Source: Liolophura sinensis (lineage: Eukaryota > Mollusca > Polyplacophora > Chitonida > Chitonidae). Taken from it: a stretch of DNA of 64,000 nucleotides. The notes below the pieces were generated by a model, which saw nothing but the letters and a program-made list of their open reading frames with translations, did not search any database and was not told the origin of the DNA. Positions 48,401-63,650 of the stretch are shown here, one piece after another. The position numbers and the translations under genes were made by a program. Location of the stretch: the NCBI RefSeq assembly GCF_032854445.1, contig NC_088298.1, positions 18,495,976 through 18,559,975 of the forward strand, in the 5' to 3' direction. Position 1 is the first letter of the stretch; each line of letters opens with the position of its first letter.

Positions 48401-50192
48401 ACGGTGTGTAGCATGACTGTCGGTGACAGTTTTCGATATAATGATGAGAACATCCAATGCAAAGAAAAATTAGATGGATATGTTTAAAAACCAGCGAAAA
48501 TTACACAAACGTCAGTTGAAACCCCAACACCATAATAGTTTAATGTATATAATTTAGTTTAAGGTTCTGCTCGTTTGAAAATTGATGCAGTGTTTTTGTT
48601 CACTTGAGGGTTCACTTAGCCAAAGATAAAGTAGATAACAAAATGTACCTGGAAAGATTTGTACTTCCTGTGCTACCTTCGGAAAGTATTTGGACGTACA
48701 AAGCTTAACCGTTCCTGCATACCCCAGCCGTACAGTAGGTGGTCCTTAAATATATTTATAAATGTTGCTATCAGCACAGACGCTGTGAGGTAAGAAGGCG
48801 GGGGTGGAGCGTTTATCATCCTGTGCCTTGTAGAGAACCAATTCTATCACACTAAATCGTGTAAACAAGTGTGCCAGTGTCAGAAACAGGGTTTAGAATG
48901 AAGTTGATAGCAGTTTAGGTAAATGGTGTCTCTCTCCGTGAAAACGTAGTGAACCACATTGGAACATCCAGTATGCCAATGGTTCTTAAATTGAAAAATG
49001 ATTATGATATCCACCAAGCACGAGTTCTTGGTGTTGAAACCAAGATTAAGTGTTTTAACATTGTGAGTGAGAAAAAGTAATCTAACTGAATATTCCGTAC
49101 AATAATATAGAAATCCATCAATGAATGTGTAGAGCTTGTGGTGTTACGTGTCACTACTAAAATAATATTGATAGTGAGTACGACTTATTTTACAGACAGC
49201 TGTTTTTAAGCAAAAAGATAAAAGAAAAATATAATATCAGCATGGTTTAAGCAGAATTACAAAAAACTTTAGTGATATTAGAAGTCTTTAGCTTGAAGTT
49301 ACAAGTACAAACTTATAACTTGTAAGTTGGAACTAGAACAGATAAGTTATTACTAGACTGAAGTTACAAGTTTGTAGTTGTAACTTCTAACTAAAGATCT
49401 ATATTAATTACCATTTGGATACCTTGAATACTGTGTTCTCCCCACATACAACAAATATTAACACAAAACAAGGAAAACAGAACTGGTTTCTGGGATATGT
49501 AGTCCACCAGCGGGATACTGGTTTATGCAGGCATACTGCGTGAAAGACTGCAGCACTTTATAATTAAAGCTCTGAAAGATTCAAACTGATATTATACAAA
49601 GTAGCATGTTATTATACACGAAAAGGTATATAAGTATATAAGTTACATGTTTATAGCCTCAGAAGGTAATCTTTTGACAGATTTGTCTAAAGATCATTCT
49701 AAGTCATACTAAGTGCTCTGAATTTTATTGTCTAGAAATGTTTAGATCACATGTTAAATTTTGCTCTCCGGAACTAGTTTCCAAATTAAAATTGGTGAAA
49801 CTGACACTCAAAACGCGTCATACACGTGGTACGTTCATCCTTATCGCCAGACCTTTGCCATTTAGCTTGGTATAAGAACACCTACCAATGTCACAAAACA
49901 CATCTAGAACTTCTATGAAAAAGGTCCGTGGCTCAGTATACAGTCGTAACAAAAGGTAAATGAAAACTCCCTAAATGAAAAATTTATTGTAACAATACAT
50001 GAGTTTCCATCCATATGTGAGCCACAATCACAATGAAACAATCACTCTGAGAGTAGTAACAAGTTCAGTAGGATAGAAAGTAACATAATACAATGACAGC
50101 TTAATATTCCTGATGAACCTGCTTTCTAAGAAACTAAATAAAAAATTAAATCAAAGATAAATTAAACTAAAAGGTATTGGCGACAAATATTC
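48401..50192. other. Gene-less stretch with a small hairpin
   Basis: GAAGTTACAA and TTGTAACTTC form a perfect 10-bp inverted repeat with an 8-base loop at 49,360-49,387, and related words lie just upstream. No gene was seen. Confidence 0.45.
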
Positions 50193-50655
50193 GGCCTGAT
50201 GCTTTACTGGTGGCAGCACTTTGACAGCGTGGACTCATCCTGTTACAAGAAGACACAACATATTTGTAGTGTTTCATATATGGTGTCTGCGGCCTGATGC
50301 TTCAGTGGCGGCAGTTTGACAGCGTGGACTCATCCTGTTACAAGAAGACACAACATATTTGTAGTGTTTCATATATGGTGTCTGCGGCCTGATGCTTTAG
50401 TGGCGGCGGCACTTTGACAGCGTGGACTCATCCTGTTACAAGAAGACACAACATATTTGTAGTGTTTCATATATGGTGTCTGCGGCCTGATGCTTTAGTG
50501 GCGCCAGCACTTTGACAGCATGGACTCATCCTGTTACAAGAAGACACAACATATTTGTAGTGTTTCATATATGGTGTCTGCGGCCTGATGCTTTAGTGGC
50601 GGCGGCACTTTGACAGCGTGGAGTCATCCTGTTACAAGAAGACACAACACATGTG
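50193..50655. repeat. 98-bp tandem repeat, about 4.6 copies
   Basis: GGCCTGATGCTTTAGTGGCG, TTTGACAGCGTGGACTCATC and TTTGTAGTGTTTCATATATG recur at 98-base spacing (one unit is 95 bases). Units are nearly identical, so this is recent amplification. It is followed by a CATCGTCATATCACTGAAAAA scrap of the (ACTC)n-tailed SINE. Confidence 0.93.
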
Positions 50656-53600
50656 TACACACCTAAAGACACCTCATCGTCATATCACTGAAAAAGTACA
50701 GTAACAATAACTTGTTAAGTGCGAGGTTAATCACCAAGCATTCATTTATTCACATCACTATCTTAATAAGAATTTCCCCTATTTGTCTACTGTACATTTT
50801 GTACATAGCTATTACTGTAAAATCATTTTTGAACTATCTTAGGATCTTTCTAATCAGTTTCAAACATTTTATTGGCTCTAAATATAAACAAAATGAGCAA
50901 AATCTGATTTTAAAAACCGACCTTAGAAAATGTTTGACATTTCTGCAGTTCTTGGCAGGGAAGATGTGAAAAAAAAGTCTTAATGAAGACATTTGGCTCT
51001 TTCCTTTCATTTGAACCACACATTATTTTGGACATCATGTACACTTAATAAGAGGATTTGAGTTCAAACTCTTTTCCTCCTGAAGTCTAAAAAGTCTTGC
51101 TATATCATGTGACTTGTCAAAAGAGCATTCAGTTTTAGTGGACATGAACGGAATAACTGTATTATCGTGTTTAGAAACCACATGTGACACCTCTTTGCTT
51201 CGGGGTCTTCTTTTCCTAACGGTCCAGATCCTAAATTTTCTCCATAGTACGTCTACTTTCAATGAGCCCTCTCCTCAGACGCCCATATTAATGCACATGT
51301 AATCAAAATAATCTATTTACTGTTTTCACTCCTGTAATGGTACATGTACCATATGACTTTTTGTTTTACCTTCCGCCGCAAGCCTTGAGTCAGCGAGGTC
51401 GTATGTTCGAAACCACCTTTCTCTGCCTCATCTGCTGCATGGCTAAAATTAGAAGTTTTTATCATTTATTTAGGAGTTGCAATGATTTTAGCTCATGGAG
51501 TTGACCACCGTTGCGTGAGTAAGATGTCCGACGAAGGACAGTGGTTTATTCCGACCACTCCCGTTTCCTTCTGAACCTATTCCAGGCATACGGTCTATCA
51601 TGTAACTTCAGTTCTGCCGTACATGTCGTTGGGAATTACGAATACTTTTATAATACATAGTTGATAGAAAGGAAAATTGTCATTGGTTTACTAGGCTTAT
51701 AATAATTCTCTTTCAATTTGTCGGGATTAGTTCACAGGGGCAGTACATGCAAACTTACAGCCGGTTCCTCTTGCTGATTTCAGGTTTATCGTTAGTATTC
51801 CTTCAAGAGTGCAGGGCGTTTTGGGTTGCGTTGATGTTTATCGATTTATCAATCTCGTCCAGGTAGATTTGACAAGAACGCCATCATTATTACGCACTGG
51901 TTCGTCGAGGCCTAAAACATTGTTTTCAACCCATTCCTATACCTTGTCTAAACAGCCCAAATAACAAATAACCCGTGACTAACTCCACTTTCAGCTGTAT
52001 ATACCCAAGTGTCACACATGAATGGCAGATGACGAACAGGAAACCCTGGACGTGACTTCTGCAAACACATCTGACTTGTGGACAGCACGTCATATCGTAC
52101 ATGTCACTCCTGCAAACTTGCCCATCGTGACTTGTGGATAGCCTTTTTTTTAGTAAAGGTGATTTCTACGGCCTGCCGTGTGGTACATGTGACTTCTGAA
52201 AATATATCGATACTTGTAGAAAGCCTTGATGTCGCGTAATGATGTCGCGAGATAGGACGCGTAATAACTTATGTTATCACACATATGATTTGTAATGTCA
52301 ATATTTCGACCAGTATGGCATGTGGGAAATAAAAAAGTGACATGTAGAAAGCAGCATTGAGAATAACATTTGTTTTTTAATATTTAAAAATAGAATTTGT
52401 CTCAGAATCAAAATTTATATTTTTCAATATATTTAAATCTGTAGAAAATAAATTATTTTTAGAAAAACTTCAGTTATTATATTGAGCTTTACATACACGC
52501 GTCAAGGCGATGACACACTACTGTGTTCTGGCATTTGTAGGACGTCATGTTATTCTGTTAAGGCGGAAAAAACCAAATACTTTGCATGTATTTATAATTT
52601 ATTTGCACAAAACATGGATGTCCTTCTAGATAAACGTACATGTATATAGATTTGCTTATTATTTAACGTTTCTTAATATTCTGTCCTCGGACACGGAATT
52701 TTCTTGATTCCTAAGATTATCTCTTTCTCGGCTACAGTATGTGGTGAATTTTATTTTGTTGTGTGGTCTTACGTGAAGTTCCAGGAGACCATTTGCTTTG
52801 TTACACGTTAGCGAGTTTCGGTTTCCCCCACCTATAAAACCGAAGTTCTTGAGAAATACGTAAAACAAGAAAGAAATGTATCAATAAAGACAAATTCTAT
52901 CATTATTTTAATGTTTACTGGTAAAAGAGCATACACCTACTTCAAGGTCGTTTTGTCGACCACCCTCTTATCATTTCGGTTGTGGAGAGATAGTGGAGAG
53001 AGCTGAAGATTATCACTAAAATTCAGCATATTTGCACCAGGTGAAGAAACGACAGATATTCACAGCCCACCAGAGATCATTGTTCACAAAAAAAATTCAT
53101 CCCTGCGCATGTGTCGCCATAGATAATACTAATCGCTTTGAGTGATTCTCTGCTTATCGTAGAAAATGCAAGGGAGCTAGCCCTTGTTATCAGAAAAACA
53201 TCGAAGCCATCGACTAATTCCAGATAAAGCTTCCGTAAAATGGTGTCGAAATACACCAGAGGCTTTTCTCGTAGACAGGAGTTCGTGGCGTACAACACAA
53301 AAAAATATCAGCCATTTTTGACTTTAAGTGTGAAAGGGTACGTGGTGTAGAAAGGTACGTGTGATAGGTCTTTGGAAGAGTAATAATCCCAGATTTCCGA
53401 ACAATAATGACAACAAGGAATTACAGCTGTCGACTGTATTTTTACTTGGGTAAGTGGTCATATTTTTCATTGACATCCCGTCGGAGGGAGTTATGTTGCC
53501 GACAGTGACTGGGCTTTTTAGCTAGCCCATTGTCAAAGTTTTTTATCCATATTTACATACCTTTCATCTGTTTGATTGATGTTTAACGCCAGATTCGCTG

Positions 53601-54676
53601 AAGTTTCATTTAAACCATGAATAGCCATCATTTTTGCGGTTGAAAAAGTTGGAGTGCTAAAAGCGAACCAATGGCCCTTGGGAAGTAACTTGTGAATTTT
53701 CTACACATTTTTACCTGTAGATCGAGCTAATTATGTTGTGAGCAAAAACCACTCTATATGCGACAAATTATTTTTGCCATTTTTGCCCAGTACGACAAAG
53801 AAAGCTCATGAAGATTGTGTCCAACATGTGGCGTCTGAATGATAAGCCTGTAAATTACCCAGTCACGACCCACCAGTATTAAAATTTAAGCATGCAGTGC
53901 TTAAATAAAAATTGTTTTCAAAGCTTTTTCGACAAGAGTGTTTTTGGGTATATCTGATATAAATTAAAATTAAGTCTCTTTTACTAGAATGAGAGAGAAA
54001 ACTATTTACGTTTTTTTGGATTTGTAGCCAAATTCCGTAATGCTTAAATTAAATCATTCCTTTCCGCCCACTTTCTCTAAAAACAGCTTCCCTCCACGTG
54101 CTCGCATTTTCTCTCCTTTTGCCTATCCACTACTCTTCCTTCCACAAATTTCTTACCCCGCCCCCAACTCCTTTTCTCCAAAAACTAACATCCCTCTTTC
54201 TCAAATTTTACACATTATAACTTGGACTTTATTTCACTATACTAACATACTGTCTCCTCTGGTGTGTTGTAGGTCTCATCGTTCTACTGACGTCACTTTC
54301 ATGTGGGTAATTTAGATATATTAGAGGGTTGTGGTTACACCGACACTCCCCAACCACATAATTAATCTGAGTTTTGGTCATCAAGCACACCTAGCTTTTT
54401 CGAAAAGAGCCACACTTTATTAGAGGAAGTGCGAATAAAGTTTTTTGGTTTTTCAAGTTACTTTTTAATAATCTGACTTTCTAAGAAGCTGTACAAGCCA
54501 ACATGCTCATAAAAAGTGGGTTTGCAATTTCACACAACTGAAGTGAGAGCCCATAACTATGCAAACAGAAGGAAAGGATTTGTCCTGCAGTATAAAAATT
54601 GATACCAAATCGTGACTAAGGTTCCCTCCCCCCCTCCACCCCCTCTACCAACGTCTTTCTATGTTTTAATTCGTAG
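50656..54676. other. Gene-less or unassigned stretch upstream of the LU-SRCR gene
   Basis: Only short isolated frames occur. One at 53,077-53,298 (minus, reading PLVYFDTILRKLYLELVDGF in part) is protein-like but has no recognisable family or clear splice sites. Upstream exons, including the signal peptide of the LU-SRCR gene, could be hidden here or in unseen introns. Confidence 0.4.
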
Positions 54677-55031: not shown

Positions 55032-58000
55032 ATGTTGCATCAGCTGATATCTTCGGTCCAAAATGTCTCAGTTGTGAAGGAGTGGGGAGTCCATCAGACT
55101 GCCTGTATACAAAACGATGCTGGGCACACGAGGTGAATTTTCTTCTTATTTTAAAAGCCGGAATATTTTACAATTTCTTTTCACCTTTCCTTATCACACG
55201 CGTAGTTTAGTGTCAATCATTTTCTATTCACCTGGCAATGATTTGGGGAGACATGGTCTCCCGGGAAGTAAACATGCTATACAATTCTCTATCTGAATTA
55301 TCGTCATCCACTTCGTTCTATTTCCTGCATACATCCTGACAGCGATGCTTCACGGAACATCTGACCAATTCCAGCGGAGCCACTTGGTACAACTTCGGCT
55401 GTAAAATACAAGAGGTAACAATACTTTTTTTTTATTTCATTGGTGTTATATGTTGTACTGTAGAACCTGTGACTTAACCTTTACGGCCAGCATTATATTA
55501 GCAAAAAAAGAAAGAAAAAAAGGGGACAGAGCCCGGTGGGGCTCAAAGACCATCCAAAGGCTACTTGAAGACGTTTCTACATAAGATCGGATGAGAACTG
55601 ATAAAGTTTAGATAGACAACGTATAAATTAAACGGTACATTGGCAGGCATAACTCTTAGCATCTTAGGAGCATGCATTACCGTTAAAACTGAGGAGTAGA
55701 GAAAGAAATAGGGGCAAAACATGACCGTGTTAATTCTTTGCATGTAATATTTATATTGTACAATAATTAAATAAAAAAAACACAAACTCAAACATTTTAT
55801 CAAGCACAGGTTCATGTTATTTCTTATTTCTTTTTAAAAAAATCCATGTGACGTCATGAAGCCCCAACTATATAGAAATGGTTCCATAAACGTACCATTG
55901 AAGACAAATATTTTGATGGACCTAATACTTTTTAAAACAGTATTAAATGTTTTAAATGTAAATGAAGATATATTAGATACTGCTAAAACAGATGTAACTG
56001 TTGTCTTGTCCATGAATACGTGACCTTTGTTTTACTTTATTCGTTTTCTCATTACTTGTGGGTTTGTTATCTTTTCCATGATTAAGTACCCTTTTTGACA
56101 CAGTTGCATTTATTTATTTCCATTTCTGTGTTTGCTTCACTTTGTCTGTCGACAGGAATGTAGCCTGCTGGAATCTTTCAGCGAGAGAAGACGAGGTTTT
56201 GAACCAACAGTGACACTGTGTGAGCGATGTTGTACAGGTGATGCCTGTAACACCCATCTCTGTTCAACAACAACAGGTGAACTGTTTCCACCCAGATTAC
56301 TTTAATTTTTTATACCTGATTTCAATATACCCGAAGTCAACATTACCAGTCTCGCACAACCTAAGAGAAATTAACATAAGTAGGCTTTAATACTTACCTT
56401 TTCCAATATTTGCGAAAACACTTAAGACAATCTTTACATAGGTTAATGGTTAAAATCTAGACATGTGCCAGAAAAGCGACGGTTACCTAGCAAGTGCCTG
56501 GTAGTAAACTGGTTGATGACTCAAAACTATTCAGCAACATTTGCTTGTCCAAGTTTTCAACATCTCCTGAAGAGAACACTTACCAACCTAGAAGTTTTGT
56601 GCAAATCATAGAATGGCAATAAAACTTTAATAAGGAAATAAAGCATACCTTAATGCAACACATTGAAGTAATTGTGTGTTAAAAGAGGAGAGCCTGGAGT
56701 AACCAAACAACTCCATTTCGTCAGATATCTTACAACCCTGTTGACTTAAAGGTGCAACCAACAACAGCGTGACATATAATTTCATCTCAGTTGAATTGCG
56801 ATAGCTTATCTACTCGGCCGCAAAGTCTCCAATTTAAAATCAACATCCTGTAATGTATTGAAGGAAGAAGTGGTAGAGTACACATTTTACCTATTCGTTC
56901 CCGAGGAGTTGAATTAGAAAGCATAACGAGGACAATCCTACACAGTACATTGACACTAGCATTTTCTTTAAAAGGGATGGTTTACACAAACAAAAGCCAT
57001 GATGTTGCTTTCTAAAAAAAGGAGAAAAAGCGCCCTACGTCCCAGTCTCAATTTTAAAGAGGTTTCTGAAATTCTAAGAAACTTCGTTTGTCACTAAAAA
57101 TGTTTATACTACCATTTTATCATTTGTAGTCATTTGCGACTCTCTTTTTCTTCCCGTGTCTGGTCAAGTAAGTTGTATTTTTCTCTTCAATCCATAGGTC
57201 CACAATCCCTTTCCTGTTTTTCTTGTGACGACACGGACGATTCCAACGCCTGTCATGTGGTCAAACATTGCAGGCCACACGAGGTGGGTTGGTATCAGCG
57301 AGCATTCTGAAACATCTAGCCTCGGATGCATGGCCTATCCCGTACAAATAGAGTTCCGCACGGGTTATTCCCTAGTCTCATATGCTCGTATTTGGTAGGC
57401 TTTCACTCAGGGACAAATGTCAGAAAGCTATTTCTTTAAAATGATTTAATGTACGCGCAACTATTTGGGAAAGGATTTTAGACCAATTTCCAGATGACCT
57501 TTTTCACGTTCCATTATTGACTTTCTACTCCTCTCGTGGATAATAAATAGTTTTGTGAACGCCGTAAATTTGTTAATATAACAAATGAATAGCAAAATTT
57601 AAAAAAAACAAAAGCGTTTAAATTCGAAACTGAATAAATGTATAAATTAATAATTATTATTGCAATAATTAAAAGCAAAATAAATTATTTGAATAAGTAT
57701 ATAAACTATATAAATATAAACAAAAATAATTCAATAAACAAAATGATATACAAATAATGCAAGTATATGAAACTATTTCAGGTCAGCCAGCTCATGCTGG
57801 CTTCCTCTCCGGCTGTACGTGGGAAGGTCTGCCAGCAGCCTGCGAATGGTCGTGGGTTTCCCCCGGTTTCTCTGCCCGGTTTCCCCCCACCATAATGCTC
57901 AAGAATAAGTGAAATACTCTTGAGTACGGCGTAAAACACCAGTCAAATACATAAATAAATATTTCAGGTGTGTTACGCTGAGTCGGTGATTGAAGATAGT

Positions 58001-61000
58001 CCAGTGCCCAGGCACACTTTGGGTTGCGTGTCACAGTCGGTGAGTGCATATACTAGGGGCCATTTTCTGGTTGGCAAAAGGTGTGTAATTTGACCTTTTG
58101 ATCACTGAGAAGTCCTCATCAAATCCCATCCCAGGGTTGTATACATGTACACTCTTAACAAAATAATCCAGAAACAAAACGTTCATGATATATTTAAAGT
58201 GTGATGCTAGATACAGATGAGGTTTTCCCGTCTTTGTAAAATCCTTATAGTTGTCTGACAGAATAATAATGATACACTGCTATTCTTAACAAAAGCGAAA
58301 TGTTCAATACATGAGATTTATATTTAAATTTATGAAAACCCTTGATTTTTAATTATAGTTTTTCGTTCAGTATTTACCCATGTTCTTCACATAAGAATAA
58401 CCATAAAAACAAGAAGAGACTTGTACCCAACACTTGTCTTGTGATCGACGTGTGGTTGATTTTTTTTTTCTTTCTGTTCAAGTTTTGTCACCTGCTTACG
58501 GGAAATATCATTGGTCGTCGAACAGGTGATACACGTGAAAAGAGAAAAACTCACCTGTGTCAAAAATGCTGTCAGATATCAGGATGTAACAGTGACATTT
58601 GTTTCTCACAGAAGGTATAATAGGTTTTCCATTTTAATGAGAAAAAAAATACAGTTAAACCTTCTCTATTTACTCCTAGAACTTTGGTTTGCCATGTCCC
58701 TTCACAGGACCTCTGTATTACATATACAGACATTTACCGTTTTGAGTACCAAGGCGATAAGAACCCGTACATCTGAACCCTTAAATGTTCCAATGAACAT
58801 TTTGCTGGGGTTTCCTCTTGTAATAGGGCAGTCTTAATGCCGAATGTGTTTGTTTGTCAAATGTGATGACAGTACTGTATTTTGAATAATTCATTCTTTT
58901 TAATTATCATGTATGCTGTATCCTTTGATGCTGTTTCCATGTGATTGTATATTAAACGTGATGAGAATACAGCATTTTGAGCAATTCTGGATGAGTGACG
59001 TTTAATACATTGCAACTAATATCACTGTGAACTATTTACCTAATTCTGCTTAATTCATGGTGCCAGAGAGCGTCTTATTTGCGACTATTTAAGCATTTAT
59101 ATGAATAGTTCACAATAATATAAATAAGACGTCCCACAGAAACAAAACCACAGCGGTGGACACAGTGTGATAGCTGGTCACACGTAATGGGTGAAATACA
59201 GCCTCATGTCAGCTTACCTTATTCAGGCATTTATTCTATTTATGTAAGTGCCTAATTACACGCCCCCTAGCACCATGATTTGAGCTGAATTAGGTAAAAA
59301 ATGCAGTGATGTTAATTGCATTTCATTAGACGTCTCTTGTCTAGAATTACATCTAACATACAGTAACATTACAACAATTCAATAGGACCAGGCCTCGGGA
59401 ATGGCTATGCCACCAGCATAATTCTGTCTTATGCAGGAATACAATATAATTAAGACGTACGGCATAGAGAGAAAAAATCGACAAGTGACCTAAGTTTAGT
59501 GGTTACGTGTGCTCATTTGGGAGATACTTCACCATCGTCCTGTACTCTTTCATATCGAATCGACCGCGATAGCAAAGTTGGTTTTGCGTCTGCTTCGGGA
59601 GAGGTAGATTCAGAATCAACCATGGGTCCAGTCACACCTAAGATCTTAAAAGGGGGTGATTCGACTTCCTCGCTTGAAGGAGATAGTGCAACGACTGGTT
59701 GACCCGTATCAGTATAATGACTCGGGCGGGGCGGATTACTTGCCTTCGTTAAGTCGTCTCAGTGAGGTAGCTCTAGATAAAAGAGCGGTGGAAATCCGTC
59801 CTGCAACAAGGAGGCACATTACATGCGCTGTAAGGATTCCTTCGTCGTCATATGACTGAAAAATCGTTAAGTACGACGTTAATCCCCAATCCCTCACTCA
59901 CTCACTCTTTCATATCGACATGTTTATGTTGTTGCTTCACATGGTTAGCCACACCAAATACACCAGAAGTAAGGACAAATCTCCTCACAGTATGTTCACG
60001 ATGGACTCAGATGTGTACCCCTTATCGTTTTCTATCGAGGCTCTGAAATGCTTTAATTACAATTGTGGGACAGACAAGGTGATGGTTCATTTCTAGAAGA
60101 GTGATATTTGCGTTAAGATTGCTTGGGAGTCTTAAAGATAATAACAGATAGGAGATGTTGTGGTTTTGGTTCGTCTTACATGAACCTATTTGGATATTGA
60201 CTAGTTTCCAAGAATATCCTTGTCGGTGGGTTTTTTTATGTGTGGTATTTAACACATTGGAATTTAATCAACCCATCCATCAATCACTTTTGTATGAAAC
60301 ATGTAAAACATTAATCGTTTTCATTTATCTGTAACTCAAATTATACATCATATTCAATTCGTGTTTCGTTTTATTTTTTCTGTTTTAGCCAATTTCCCAA
60401 GGAACGCAAGCGACGGAAGGATTCCAATCAACTGCAGTTACATCTGTAACGAATGAAGTCCCCTTAACATGTAAATTGACATTTTGTTAAAACAAACAAC
60501 CTACTAGTGGAAACATAAATGTCATGTTGATAAAAGTGTCATGTTGTATCAAGGTGTCATGTTGATAAATGTGTCATGCTGATAAAGGTGTCATGCTGAT
60601 GAAGGTTTCATTCTGATAAACGTTTCATGTTGATAAAGGCGTCGTGTTGATGATAGCGTCATATTGATGAAGGAATGACAATAACAAAAGTGTCATCCTG
60701 GTAAAGGTAACATGTTGATAAAGGTATAATGTTGATGAAGGCGTCACGTTAATGAAAGCATCTTGTTGATGTAGCTGTTACGCTGAAAAAGGCGCCATTT
60801 TGATGTAGGATTTATGTTGATGAAGGCGTCATGTTGATACAGACATCATGTTGATAAAGGCCTTATGTTGAAGAAAGTGTCATTCTGATGTAGGCATGTT
60901 GATAAAGGCGCCATGTTGGTGTAGGCATGATGTTGACAAAGGCGTCATGTTGATGAAGGCGTCATGTTGATGTAGGCGTCATGCTAATGTATGCAATATG

Positions 61001-63269
61001 TTGATGAAGACGTCGTGTTGATGTAGGCATTTTGCTGATGAAATCGTCATTTTGGTGAAGTTGTCTTGCTGTTGTGCGCATTATGCTGATAAAGGCGTCA
61101 TGTTGATGAAGGAATCATGTTTTGTAGGCGTCATGCTGATATTGACATTGTGTTGATTAAGGCGTCATGTTGATGTGGGCATAATGTTCATGAAGACATC
61201 ATGTTTTGTTGATTAAAGAGGCATGCTGGCGAAGGCGCCATGTTGATGAAGGCGCCATGTTGATGAAGGTGTCATGTTGATGTAGGCGTAATATTGACGT
61301 AAGCATTATGTTGATGAAGGTGTCATGCTGATGTTGGCATTGTGTTAATGAAGGCGTCATGTTGATGTAGGCAACACGTAGAGGTAAGCGCCATGTTGAT
61401 GAAGGCGCCATGTTGATGAAGACGTTATGTTGATGAAGGCTTCATATTAATAAAGGCATCATGTTGATAAAGGCGTGACCTTGATGTAGGCATTTTTTTA
61501 ATGTAATCGTCATGTTAATGTAGGCGTCATGTTAATGTAGGCGTCATGTTAATGTAGGTGTCATATTGATAAAGGCTTCATCTTGATGGAGGCGTCATGC
61601 TGATGAAGGCGTCATGTTGATAACGGTGTCATGTAGAGCATTATTGACATTTATTTACAATTAAAAGACGAAAACTACGTTACCAGTGATATATACACAT
61701 GTGATACAAGGCCGTTATGTCTAACGAACGACAAAAAATTAGTTTTATTTTGTTTCCCACGACTTTGTAAGATGTGTAAAATATTTAATGACATTAACAT
61801 TTTGTTATAATCTATTGATAATAGAAATTCATTTCATCTTTATACGATTGATTAGGGTGCAGCATTACGTCAGTAATTTTTTCATGCATAACGGAAGACG
61901 CCATTTTTCAATGTATGCACACGTACAACTATTTCATTGTGTCTAAACTTTCATCAACATGGTAGTTCTTTTGAAAGTTAGTTACATTAGTATTTTTGTA
62001 TTCGTCAGTAAATAATCATTGTCGAACTAGGCGATACATTTATGTTTTGATCAATATTGTGATAATTGGTGTCTTTTGCATTATGGTCTGCTGAGACCAA
62101 GGCATAAGAGATACAATATTCCCCACGTAAAATAAAGGAAGTACTTCCTTTCTACACCATCAGCTGGCTACAAAAGTTAAAGAAATGTCAATAATGTGGA
62201 CGTCGGCTTAATTCTACGAGGAGTGTTGAAGTGGGCCCGTAAAATGCAGTCGTCAAAAGGGATTGTTTGAGGAGTATGACCGTATGACCCAACAGATTTG
62301 GTGAAACTTGACCTTCATTAAAACTTGCAATGTGCGGAGTACGGAAGTGTGTCCGAACGTTGCGAACGCTGTTAAAATCATGATGAGAGAAGGGAGGGAA
62401 AAAGTCTATACACAAAGGTCTACCGTACACGAAGTATGGTGCCCTTTGCAAAAATGAATACTGATGTATGCCTTGGTATTCCAGCATATAACTGATGTAT
62501 TTTGTATTCCATATTTCTTTGTACATCCACCCCGACAGACATTCGTCTGGTTGGCATGAATTACTCGATGGCCGGAAGACTTGAGGTGTACCATAACTCT
62601 CAATGGGGCACGGTCTGTGACGACTTTTTCCACGCAGCAGCTGTTAGAGTGGCCTGTCGCCAGCTTGGCTTTTCTGGGTACGTACGCTGGGTAAATATTT
62701 GATTAATTGCGTTTAGTGCAGGGATTCATTAGTTTTCCAAACTTTATCACCAAATACCAAAAAAAAGTAATCGATAAACTGTTCGCAAAAGAACAGGTTT
62801 TCCTCTCAGAGAAAGTTCTCCTCTACGCTATAAACTTTTTCCCGGGGTCTAAAGTTTTCTCTGTGGGAACAACGCTTTCTACGCGGGATTAACGTCTATT
62901 CCGCCGGTTTAGCTTTTTCTCTGCAAGATTAACGTTTTCTGGGCCGGGTTTACGTTTTCTCTGCGGCCTTCACATTTTTTCCGCGGATAATGTCAAAACA
63001 ATGTCAAAACCTTGTTCTGAGCTTTCGTGGTTTGTACGTCACGAATGTCAATTAAATACAAAATAAATAAATCATTTACTAGTATCTTCTCTTACCTGTC
63101 AGTCAGGAGGGATCTGTCATCGGGACCACACTTCCTGGTTCCGGGCACATCTGGTTGGATGACGTGACCTGTAATGGAGACGAGTCGTCCTTATTCTCTT
63201 GTTGGCATACTAATTGGGGCCAAACCGACTGCCGTCATGCAGAAGACGTCTACATTAGTTGTGGCTTCG
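55032..63269 (+). CDS. Extracellular protein with two Ly6/uPAR (three-finger) domains and an SRCR domain, partial
   Basis: Nine exons join in frame. LU domain 1: 55,032-55,132 (CLSCEGVG), 55,343-55,414 (24 codons, RCFTEHLT to FGCKIQE), 56,156-56,276 (ending CCTGDACN). LU domain 2: 57,198-57,283 (LSCFSCDD), 57,968-58,039 (24 codons, VCYAES to LGCVSQS), 58,483-58,614 (ending CCQISGCN). CC-x4-CN-like ends are the three-finger hallmark. Linker: 60,389-60,470 (Ser/Thr-rich). SRCR: 62,539-62,677 (GRLEVYHNSQWGTVCDDFF, VACRQLGFSG) and 63,103-63,269 (IWLDDVTCNG to DVYISCGFG), with six cysteines over two exons, as in group A SRCR domains. Phases are 1 at domain 1's start and end, 0 inside each LU domain, 1 around SRCR and 2 inside it. 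Such domains bind ligands at the cell surface, so a receptor or secreted recognition role is inferred. The signal peptide and the 3' end are not found. Confidence 0.85.
55431..55560 (-). repeat. Degenerate SINE in an LU-SRCR intron
   Basis: TTTCATTGGTGTTATATGTTG, ACGGCCAGCATTAT and GGGGACAGAGCCCGG match the reverse SINE body, with an A-rich insertion in the middle. Confidence 0.65.
57785..57962 (+). repeat. 5'-truncated SINE abutting the splice acceptor of an LU exon
   Basis: It starts CCAGCTCATGCTGGCTTCC and runs to GTACGGCGTAAAACACCAG and an AAATACATAAATAAAT tail, with a local deletion (ATAATGCTCAAGAATAAG). The tail ends about five bases before the AG of exon 57,968-58,039. Confidence 0.9.
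58615..59675. other. Intron sequence without features
   Basis: Intron between LU domain 2 and the linker exon. No further exon was recognised. Confidence 0.5.
59676..59908 (+). repeat. (ACTC)n-tailed SINE-like element in an LU-SRCR intron
   Basis: GGAGATAGTGCAACGACTGG, GACCCGTATCAGTATAATG, GATAAAAGAGCGGTGGAAAT, CCTTCGTCGTCATATGACTG and CTCACTCACTCACTC match the copies at 22,318 and 24,753. Confidence 0.9.
60516..61635. repeat. Long degenerate 18-bp minisatellite in the linker-SRCR intron
   Basis: About 60 units of GGCGTCATGTTGATGAAG and variants (TGATGTA, TGATAAA, GCGCCATG). Substitutions are frequent but spacing is well kept. On the minus strand a local frame gives a HQHDTF/INMAPS repeat, without other coding support. 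Confidence 0.92.
62790..62985. repeat. About 27-bp degenerate tandem repeat inside the SRCR intron
   Basis: Variants of TTTTCTCTGCGGGATTAACG recur six to eight times between the two SRCR exons. Confidence 0.8.
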
Positions 63270-63650
63270 GTAAGTTAGGGTTACAACTGAAGCCTCGACG
63301 AAGACGCCTTCATCAGTTGTGGCTTCGGTAGTTAAGGTTAAAACTGAAGCCACGACGAAGACGCCTTCATCAGTTTTGAAATGCCTAACTTGGGGGTACG
63401 ACTGTAACGACGACGTAGACATCTCAGTTAGTTGTGTCTTCGGCAAGTTGGCGTTACGACTGTAGTTACGACGCAGAAACCTTCATTGGTTGTGGCTTCG
63501 GTAACTTGGGATTGCGACCGTATGGAAACGAAGATGGCTGTATCAAGTGTGCTCACGATGAACTTGGGTTACGACTGCAGTGACAAAGATCTTTTCATCA
63601 GCTACGGATTTGGTTAGGTGGGGTTGCGACTGTAGTTGAAGAAGTCTTTT
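63245..63650 (+). repeat. About 57-bp tandem array derived from the 3' end of the second SRCR exon and its donor
   Basis: The first unit is the true exon end (GAAGACGTCTACATTAGTTG, GGCTTCGGTAAGTTAGGG). About six further degenerate units follow, with GACGCCTTCATCAGTTGTGG, CTTCGGTA and a CGACTGTAGTTACGACG linker. Several retain GGTAAG/GGTAAC-like donor sites. Confidence 0.88.

Follow-up and report, generated by a model that had tools for sequence, protein, structure and literature searches.

Nine copies of a gene combining two LU (Ly6/uPAR-type) domains with SRCR domains have been identified on contig NC_088298.1 (below, C4) of the chiton Liolophura sinensis. The first copy, g1, begins in the window, that is, the analyzed stretch of 64,000 nt (C4:18495976–18559975), which contains only its first part. 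We suggest that g1 belongs to a tandem family of secreted LU-LU-linker-SRCR mosaics that act as soluble bridges and originate from a LU-LU gene, and assign to this reading as a whole a probability of about 0.45.

The copies were found by searching the genome (609 Mb, 632 contigs) with the LU2 peptide and mapping exons in the fetched DNA. Cluster A comprises g1 to g5 (C4:18.55–18.76 Mb, forward strand), and cluster B, gC1 to gC4 (C4:22.97–23.045 Mb, reverse strand). The order LU1, LU2, SRCR on a single strand is retained in all nine copies; the first LU1 exon of gC1 falls outside the fetched stretch, and a match at C4:23045407–23045532 fits it. There are three SRCR domains in g1 to g4, five in g5, and one in each cluster-B copy. 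The g2, g3 and g4 genes are unbroken, encoding proteins of 566, 546 and 546 residues over 14, 13 and 13 GT-AG introns, each composed of a signal peptide, two LU domains, the linker and three SRCR domains, and g5 is open through its first 13 exons. Frame breaks are observed in the third SRCR of g1 (first exon, C4:18565010–18565142, frameshifted in the assembly), the third SRCR of g5 (C4:18743600–18743738), and the first LU exon of gC3 (C4:23005698–23005768), possibly reflecting either real decay or assembly errors; the HiFi coverage of the assembly is given as 14X (PMC11068029). Cluster A also harbors an inverted partial copy with LU1 and the first LU2 exon (C4:18591885–18594231, reverse strand) and a lone third LU1 exon (C4:18569623, forward strand).

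All nine exons of g1 reported in the earlier note are found in place, with GT-AG borders and compatible phases, and their joining yields 324 residues with no stops (Table 1). Still, the gene extends further than was claimed, starting two exons upstream and ending past the window, where SRCR2 and SRCR3 follow up to approximately C4:18566265 (window-equivalent 70.29 kb). Exon 1 is conserved in g2 and g5, with the identical TGG|GTAAGT donor and an in-frame join, and exon 2, which also joins in frame, belongs to a conserved block that precedes LU1 in all of g1 to g5 and has corresponding acceptors and donors there. Joined with the start of LU1, the two exons yield MTTRNYSCRLYFYLGLIVLLTSLSYVASA-DIFGPKC, judged by eye to begin with a signal peptide. 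Another signal-like frame, at position 51747 (MQTYSRFLLL...), was rejected as the first exon, as we read its donors to be incompatible with phase 1 and no counterpart was found near the copies compared. The cysteine motifs occur two, two and one times in the 53–64 kb region of the window, far more often than in 200 dinucleotide-shuffled versions, where the mean counts are 0.015, 0 and 0.

The two putative three-finger domains indeed share one three-exon plan, with middle exons of 24 codons and phase-0 inner introns. The middle exon is 72 nt long in all 18 LU modules of the nine fusion copies, as well as in both modules of a two-LU gene at C4:16.98 Mb and in LU1 of the C11 locus; three exons are observed in 17 of the 18 modules, the first exon of the remaining one (gC1 LU1) being outside the fetched DNA. 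With finger borders placed as we assume them, each exon seemingly encodes one LU finger. Each domain contains 12 cysteines. The CxxC ... CCxxxxCN framework is present in all 19 modules of a set that leaves out the partly fetched LU1 of gC1 and the broken LU1 of gC3, and the cysteine spacing in this set is invariably 2,8,5,5,17,5,(15–27),2,0,4,4, finger III alone being variable. When the LU profile is compared to solved structures, LYPD6 (6gbi) comes first, with the E-value of 9.4e-4. Moreover, a dibasic [KR]R is seen in finger III of the 19 modules, and R-X-[KR]-R in all nine LU2 domains of the fusion genes (window exon 58483–58614 and its equivalents), which we take to be a furin-like motif.

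The predicted two-exon, six-cysteine SRCR domain between phase-1 introns is also present, its inner intron being of phase 2. Symmetric exon modules, as described earlier for the gene, are thus seen in LU1 and SRCR; LU2 is an exception, the intron 3′ of it being of phase 0, not phase 1. The Pfam search with the joined peptide suggested in the earlier note detects SRCR (PF00530) at 2.6e-26 and UPAR_LY6 (PF00021) at 6.4e-8 over two stretches. When each domain is searched separately, LU1 scores 25.7 bits, above the Pfam cut-off of 24.8 bits, and LU2 falls below it (21.5 bits, E-value 3.2e-4). PF00021 matches 10 of 11 LU modules at E ≤ 1. Among full-length proteins, g2 has no listed PF00021 match at 0.001, and g3 is slightly below the cut-off; as the Pfam model misses the LU domains of the full g2 protein, annotation may hide the family. 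A search of the whole genome with UPAR_LY6 yields nothing at 0.001, probably because the exons are short; protein-query searches did work. PF00530 is found in three stretches in each of g2 and g3, and no domains besides SRCR and LU are detected in these two proteins at 0.001.

Six cysteines are present in 15 of 17 SRCR domains of the first set, which lacks the frameshifted third SRCR of g1 and g5, the third SRCR of g2, and the fifth of g5; the full proteins yield six also for the third SRCR of g3, g4 and g2. All 21 SRCR domains mapped over the nine copies (two of them frameshifted) are encoded by two exons. By the six cysteines and two-exon coding, the domains are assigned to the group A type, for which two-exon coding is the definition given in PMC3100851. 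The DMBT1-type motif VEVLxxxxW occurs in two of the 17 domains, being too close to the family consensus to carry weight. SRCR domains are expanded in the chiton genome, with at least 158 matches (150 of 501 first-look candidates scored) and SRCR-rich loci at C13:28.99–29.12 Mb, C8:3.80–3.82 Mb, C2:7.65 and 15.0 Mb, on C3, and elsewhere.

Signal-like first exons, judged from sequence, are present in g1 to g5 and gC2 to gC4; the signal peptide is encoded by a single exon in g3 and g4, and gC2, gC3 and gC4 have a different one. The best 19-residue hydropathy within the first 40 residues is 1.62 for g2 and 2.19 for both g3 and g4, and past residue 40 it is low (1.19, 0.92 and 0.92, respectively), and therefore no membrane segment is seen in these proteins. 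In all nine copies the stop follows the last SRCR framework cysteine by 2 to 15 residues, and AATAAA lies nearby, at a distance of 1 to 53 nt measured from the first base of the stop codon (in g1, the stop is six residues past the cysteine, and AATAAA is at +43). No membrane exon was found before the stop when sought after SRCR1 and after the last SRCR. Since the last SRCR is followed by a stop and AATAAA, and membrane stretches are absent, the products are predicted to be secreted. The LU-LU-SRCR order in one gene model, proposed earlier, is thus retained, but the receptor part of that proposal is not. In favor of a receptor, membrane attachment is common among SRCR and LU proteins, hydrophobic frames occur further 3′ of some copies, and weak donors could splice on from the cluster-B ends; however, these hydrophobic frames lie past the stop and AATAAA, several of them being simple repeats, and both the stops in all nine copies and the hydropathy of g2, g3 and g4 speak against the transmembrane segment or glycosylphosphatidylinositol (GPI) anchor of a membrane scavenger receptor, so that an anchored receptor is highly improbable.

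The join between the LU and SRCR parts makes a single gene much more likely than two. The LU2 exon ends with AG|GT at the same codon in all nine copies, despite differing bases beyond the donor. A linker exon, homologous in all five cluster-A genes, starts with CCAA after a shared acceptor context, contains no ATG, and shifts the phase from 0 to 1, as the join to SRCR requires. The Ser/Thr linker claimed for g1 is confirmed as an exon, and the linkers of g2 and g5 are Ser/Thr-rich as well; those of g3 and g4 are near-identical to each other. A start exon between LU2 and SRCR, sought in the diverged pairs g1–g3, g1–g5 and g3–g5, was not found, while the same search recovers the first exon 5′ of LU1; the only strong match in the LU2–SRCR interval is in the g1–g2 pair, whose introns are alike anyway. 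These observations speak against two adjacent genes duplicated as a unit, one encoding a secreted two-LU protein and terminating at LU2, and the other encoding SRCR. The features favoring such a pair are the existence elsewhere (C4:16.98 Mb) of a two-LU gene stopping directly after LU2, the early stop that g1 to g4 would meet on reading one or two codons beyond the LU2 donor, and AATAAA 22 nt past this donor in g3 and g4; on balance, we consider it very unlikely. The same stop, in four of the nine copies, and the same AATAAA could also mean that each gene yields two products, a short secreted LU-LU protein, whose transcript would be polyadenylated within the intron that follows LU2, and a complete LU-LU-SRCR protein formed by splicing, the more so as AATAAA occurs within 60 nt after only three of 84 other modeled exons, all three terminal. 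However, seven copies of nine, including g1, have no AATAAA within 400 nt, and the near-identical g3 and g4 constitute a single case, making two products rather unlikely, if less so than two genes.

The ratio of nonsynonymous to synonymous substitution rates (dN/dS) was estimated by the Nei–Gojobori method over LU1, LU2, SRCR1 and SRCR2 in cluster A, and over LU1, LU2 and SRCR in cluster B. In cluster A, it equals 0.34 for g1–g2, 0.22 for g3–g4, 0.20 for g1–g3, 0.26 for g1–g5, and 0.27 for g3–g5, and hence all five pairs are under coding constraint. In cluster B, three pairs that differ by few changes yield dN/dS between 0.48 and 0.66, and the g1–gC4 comparison is saturated. LU2 is the domain with the lowest dN/dS in three pairs of five (g1–g2, 0.06; g1–g3, 0.11; g1–g5, 0.17), but not in g3–g4 (0.55, based on three changes) or g3–g5 (0.28, with SRCR1 and SRCR2 being lower). 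Synonymous changes are distributed unevenly along the gene: in g1–g3, 13 of 66 sites are changed in LU1 vs. 49 of 73 in SRCR2 (Fisher p = 2.4e-8), and the same contrast in other pairs, which are not independent of one another, yields p = 1.4e-6 (g2–g3), 3e-3 (g1–g5), 2e-3 (g3–g5), and 0.09 (g2–g5). Outside exons only short stretches align among these paralogs, many of them probably repeats. The low synonymous divergence of LU1 could possibly be caused by exon-limited conversion or by selection on silent sites. SRCR1 domains of g1 and g3 do not pair with each other in the tree and may not be true counterparts.

The two-LU gene at C4:16.98 Mb has three-exon LU modules with 12 cysteines each and a stop directly after LU2. 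In the trees, which are unrooted and constructed without the third SRCR of g1 and g5, LU1 of gC3 and gC1, the third SRCR of g2 and the fifth of g5, LU1 and LU2 modules are split with support 1.000, and LU1 and LU2 of this two-LU gene fall with their respective sides. The sole SRCR domain of the cluster-B copies falls together with the terminal SRCR of g3 and g4 (0.984, the latter two being partial, and the last SRCR of g1, g2 and g5 being outside the tree). The same LU exon type is found at C4:16.98, C11:4.67, C6:56.95 and C13:4.6 Mb; no SRCR exons were observed in the 50 kb searched near these loci, except for a weak opposite-strand match at C11 (E-value 0.017), and none among the matches listed within 400 kb of the C11, C6 and C13 loci. 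Further exons downstream were looked for by eye at two of the other LU loci, and none were recognized.

From these data, and with an unrooted tree, we infer that the fusion probably descends from a secreted LU-LU gene that existed earlier and acquired a donor in its last exon. In such a scenario, the ancestral secreted LU-LU gene would have acquired, in its terminal LU exon, a splice donor close to where translation used to stop, reading through into a neighboring SRCR gene would have followed, and the SRCR array would then have expanded in cluster A. Two features count for the terminal-exon origin: the phase 0 of the LU2–linker intron, and the fact that reading on from the LU2 exon of g1 to g4 reaches a stop within one or two codons.

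We propose a soluble bridging role in pattern recognition, by analogy with known proteins, given that SRCR arrays recognize repetitive ligands and that the binding partners of LU domains are usually proteins (according to PMC6600238). The SRCR array would bind a repetitive ligand, a microbial or other polyanionic surface, with avidity rising with the domain number, the linker would serve as a spacer, and the LU pair would dock on a host protein partner, so that in hemolymph or mucus the soluble product would bridge the two, as an opsonin or agglutinin. By sequence, the products are predicted to have a signal peptide and no anchor, as would an opsonin or agglutinin, and a starfish SRCR protein is described as an opsonin (PMC13409769). 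The main rival, given the SRCR cluster of the scaly-foot snail (PMC7142155), is a role in the extracellular or biomineral matrix, where SRCR would bind polysaccharide or mineral, and the LU pair would crosslink, in a product of mantle, girdle or radula epithelium. It agrees with the predicted secretion, with purifying selection rather than fast change, and with the report on a membrane-anchored Ly6 protein organizing chitin in fly larvae (PMC8914287); however, no repetitive or silk-like stretches were seen by eye in the g2, g3 and g4 proteins, and we hold this role to be somewhat unlikely. A more far-reaching scheme, combining LU and SRCR domains into a chiton family of secreted bridging receptors that replaces the immunoglobulin (Ig)-SRCR and Ig-fibrinogen lectins of snails, with the terminal LU exon made internal, both short and long products made, and LU exons kept alike by an exon-limited process, is more doubtful still, and we regard it as a long shot.

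Several observations weigh against the soluble-bridge reading. The splicing of LU2 to the linker and SRCR is a prediction. If the frame is read on beyond the LU2 donor, only one or two codons precede a stop in g1 to g4; in g5 there are eight such codons, and in the cluster-B copies, 13 to 21. The assignment of the linker exon covers g1 to g5, the cluster-B linker not being located when sought, and only two of 12 linker residues in g3 and g4 are Ser/Thr. As for secretion, the signal segment of g2 is only moderately hydrophobic (1.62), AATAAA of g3 and g4 overlaps the stop, the next one being at +129, and the cluster-B tails, 11 to 15 residues long, have extra cysteines and weak donors at the tail start, via which they are in principle open to further splicing. 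The acidic pair of SRCR metal sites, placed at the positions we assume for it, is complete in six of 17 domains. Given the frame breaks in g1, g5 and gC3, some copies may be dead. Finally, with dN/dS well below 1, cluster A shows no excess of amino acid change and lends little support to an arms race, and by this measure the LU end is not consistently more constrained.

Table 1. Exons of g1 within the window (positions are counted from the first nucleotide of the window)
Feature	Position	Strand	Description
Coding exon 1	53407..53449	+	43 nt, ATG to donor; MTTRNYSCRLYFYL and first base of Gly codon; start of signal peptide (judged by eye)
Coding exon 2	54273..54302	+	30 nt; hydrophobic core of signal peptide (..GLIVLLTSLS..)
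LU1 exon a	55032..55132	+	C1–C4; phase 1 in, 0 out
LU1 exon b	55343..55414	+	24 codons, C5–C6; phase 0 in, 0 out; 72 nt in 9/9 copies
LU1 exon c	56156..56276	+	C7–C12; phase 0 in, 1 out
LU2 exon a	57198..57283	+	C1–C4; phase 1 in, 0 out
LU2 exon b	57968..58039	+	24 codons, C5–C6; phase 0 in, 0 out; 72 nt in 9/9 copies
LU2 exon c	58483..58614	+	C7–C12; phase 0 in, 0 out; stop one codon past donor if read through
Linker exon	60389..60470	+	27 codons, 9 Ser/Thr; phase 0 in, 1 out; homologous exon with same acceptor context in g1 to g5
SRCR1 exon 1	62539..62677	+	phase 1 in, 2 out
SRCR1 exon 2	63103..63269	+	phase 2 in, 1 out; domain has six Cys

Three repeats are located in or near g1. Tandem copies, 57–58 bp each, in which the 3′ terminus of the SRCR1 exon is repeated together with the donor, occupy window positions 63242–63509 and are also present in g2 (C4:18584081–18584283), while none were found when sought in g3; they possibly represent decoy or alternative donors. 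The intron between the linker and SRCR1 contains a minisatellite of approximately 65 degenerate 17-bp units (60521–61634), and a tandem repeat with a 98-bp unit in 4.8 copies is found at 50192–50657.

The statement that there is no well-described family combining LU and SRCR is in line with the literature searched, where we found no protein with both; in the parts consulted, papers naming both domains assign them to different proteins (PMC13409769, PMC6337849, PMC8914287, PMC10376093, PMC7930007), and in a survey of 1747 SRCR proteins from 29 metazoans, with 123 domains, Ly6, uPAR and PF00021 are absent from the main text (PMC10855680). According to a 2019 review, as far as consulted, LU is probably not a truly mobile module; the tandem family would be unexpected from this standard account. 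It clearly runs counter to that view, the route being visible (the terminal stop lost, a phase-0 donor present), and it provides chitons with a specific candidate family of secreted recognition proteins.

Compared to LYPD6 and the Ly6/uPAR family, the chiton genes have the same CxxC start and CCxxxxCN end, tandem LU domains and clustered organization, and, as in LYPD6, the alignment has an extra cysteine two residues before the CC pair. Unlike in this family, the chiton LU domain has 12 cysteines rather than ten, is joined to a foreign domain, and is encoded by three exons vs. the two exons with one internal intron described as typical, not defining, in PMC6600238. The two-LU gene at C4:16.98 Mb shares the three-exon LU, the 72-nt middle exons and the 12 cysteines, but stops right after LU2 and has no SRCR match in approximately 5 kb fetched downstream. 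An SRCR array in a soluble product is shared with DMBT1 (salivary agglutinin), a multi-SRCR saliva protein agglutinating bacteria (PMC3100851), and a soluble multi-SRCR protein is also described for CD5L; however, DMBT1 is assigned to group B in the same source, whereas the chiton domains are of the group A type and have an LU pair in front. In mollusks, tandem SRCR paralogs with a variable number of SRCR domains are known from the DMBT1-like cluster of the scaly-foot snail, in the description of which LU is not mentioned (PMC7142155). Thus, both domains are known already, while their combination and the three-exon form of LU are new to us. The nearest analog we have found is the apple-snail lectin (PMC9178244), a molluscan protein which, compared by description only, likewise unites SRCR with a pair of small beta domains, the latter being Ig and not LU.

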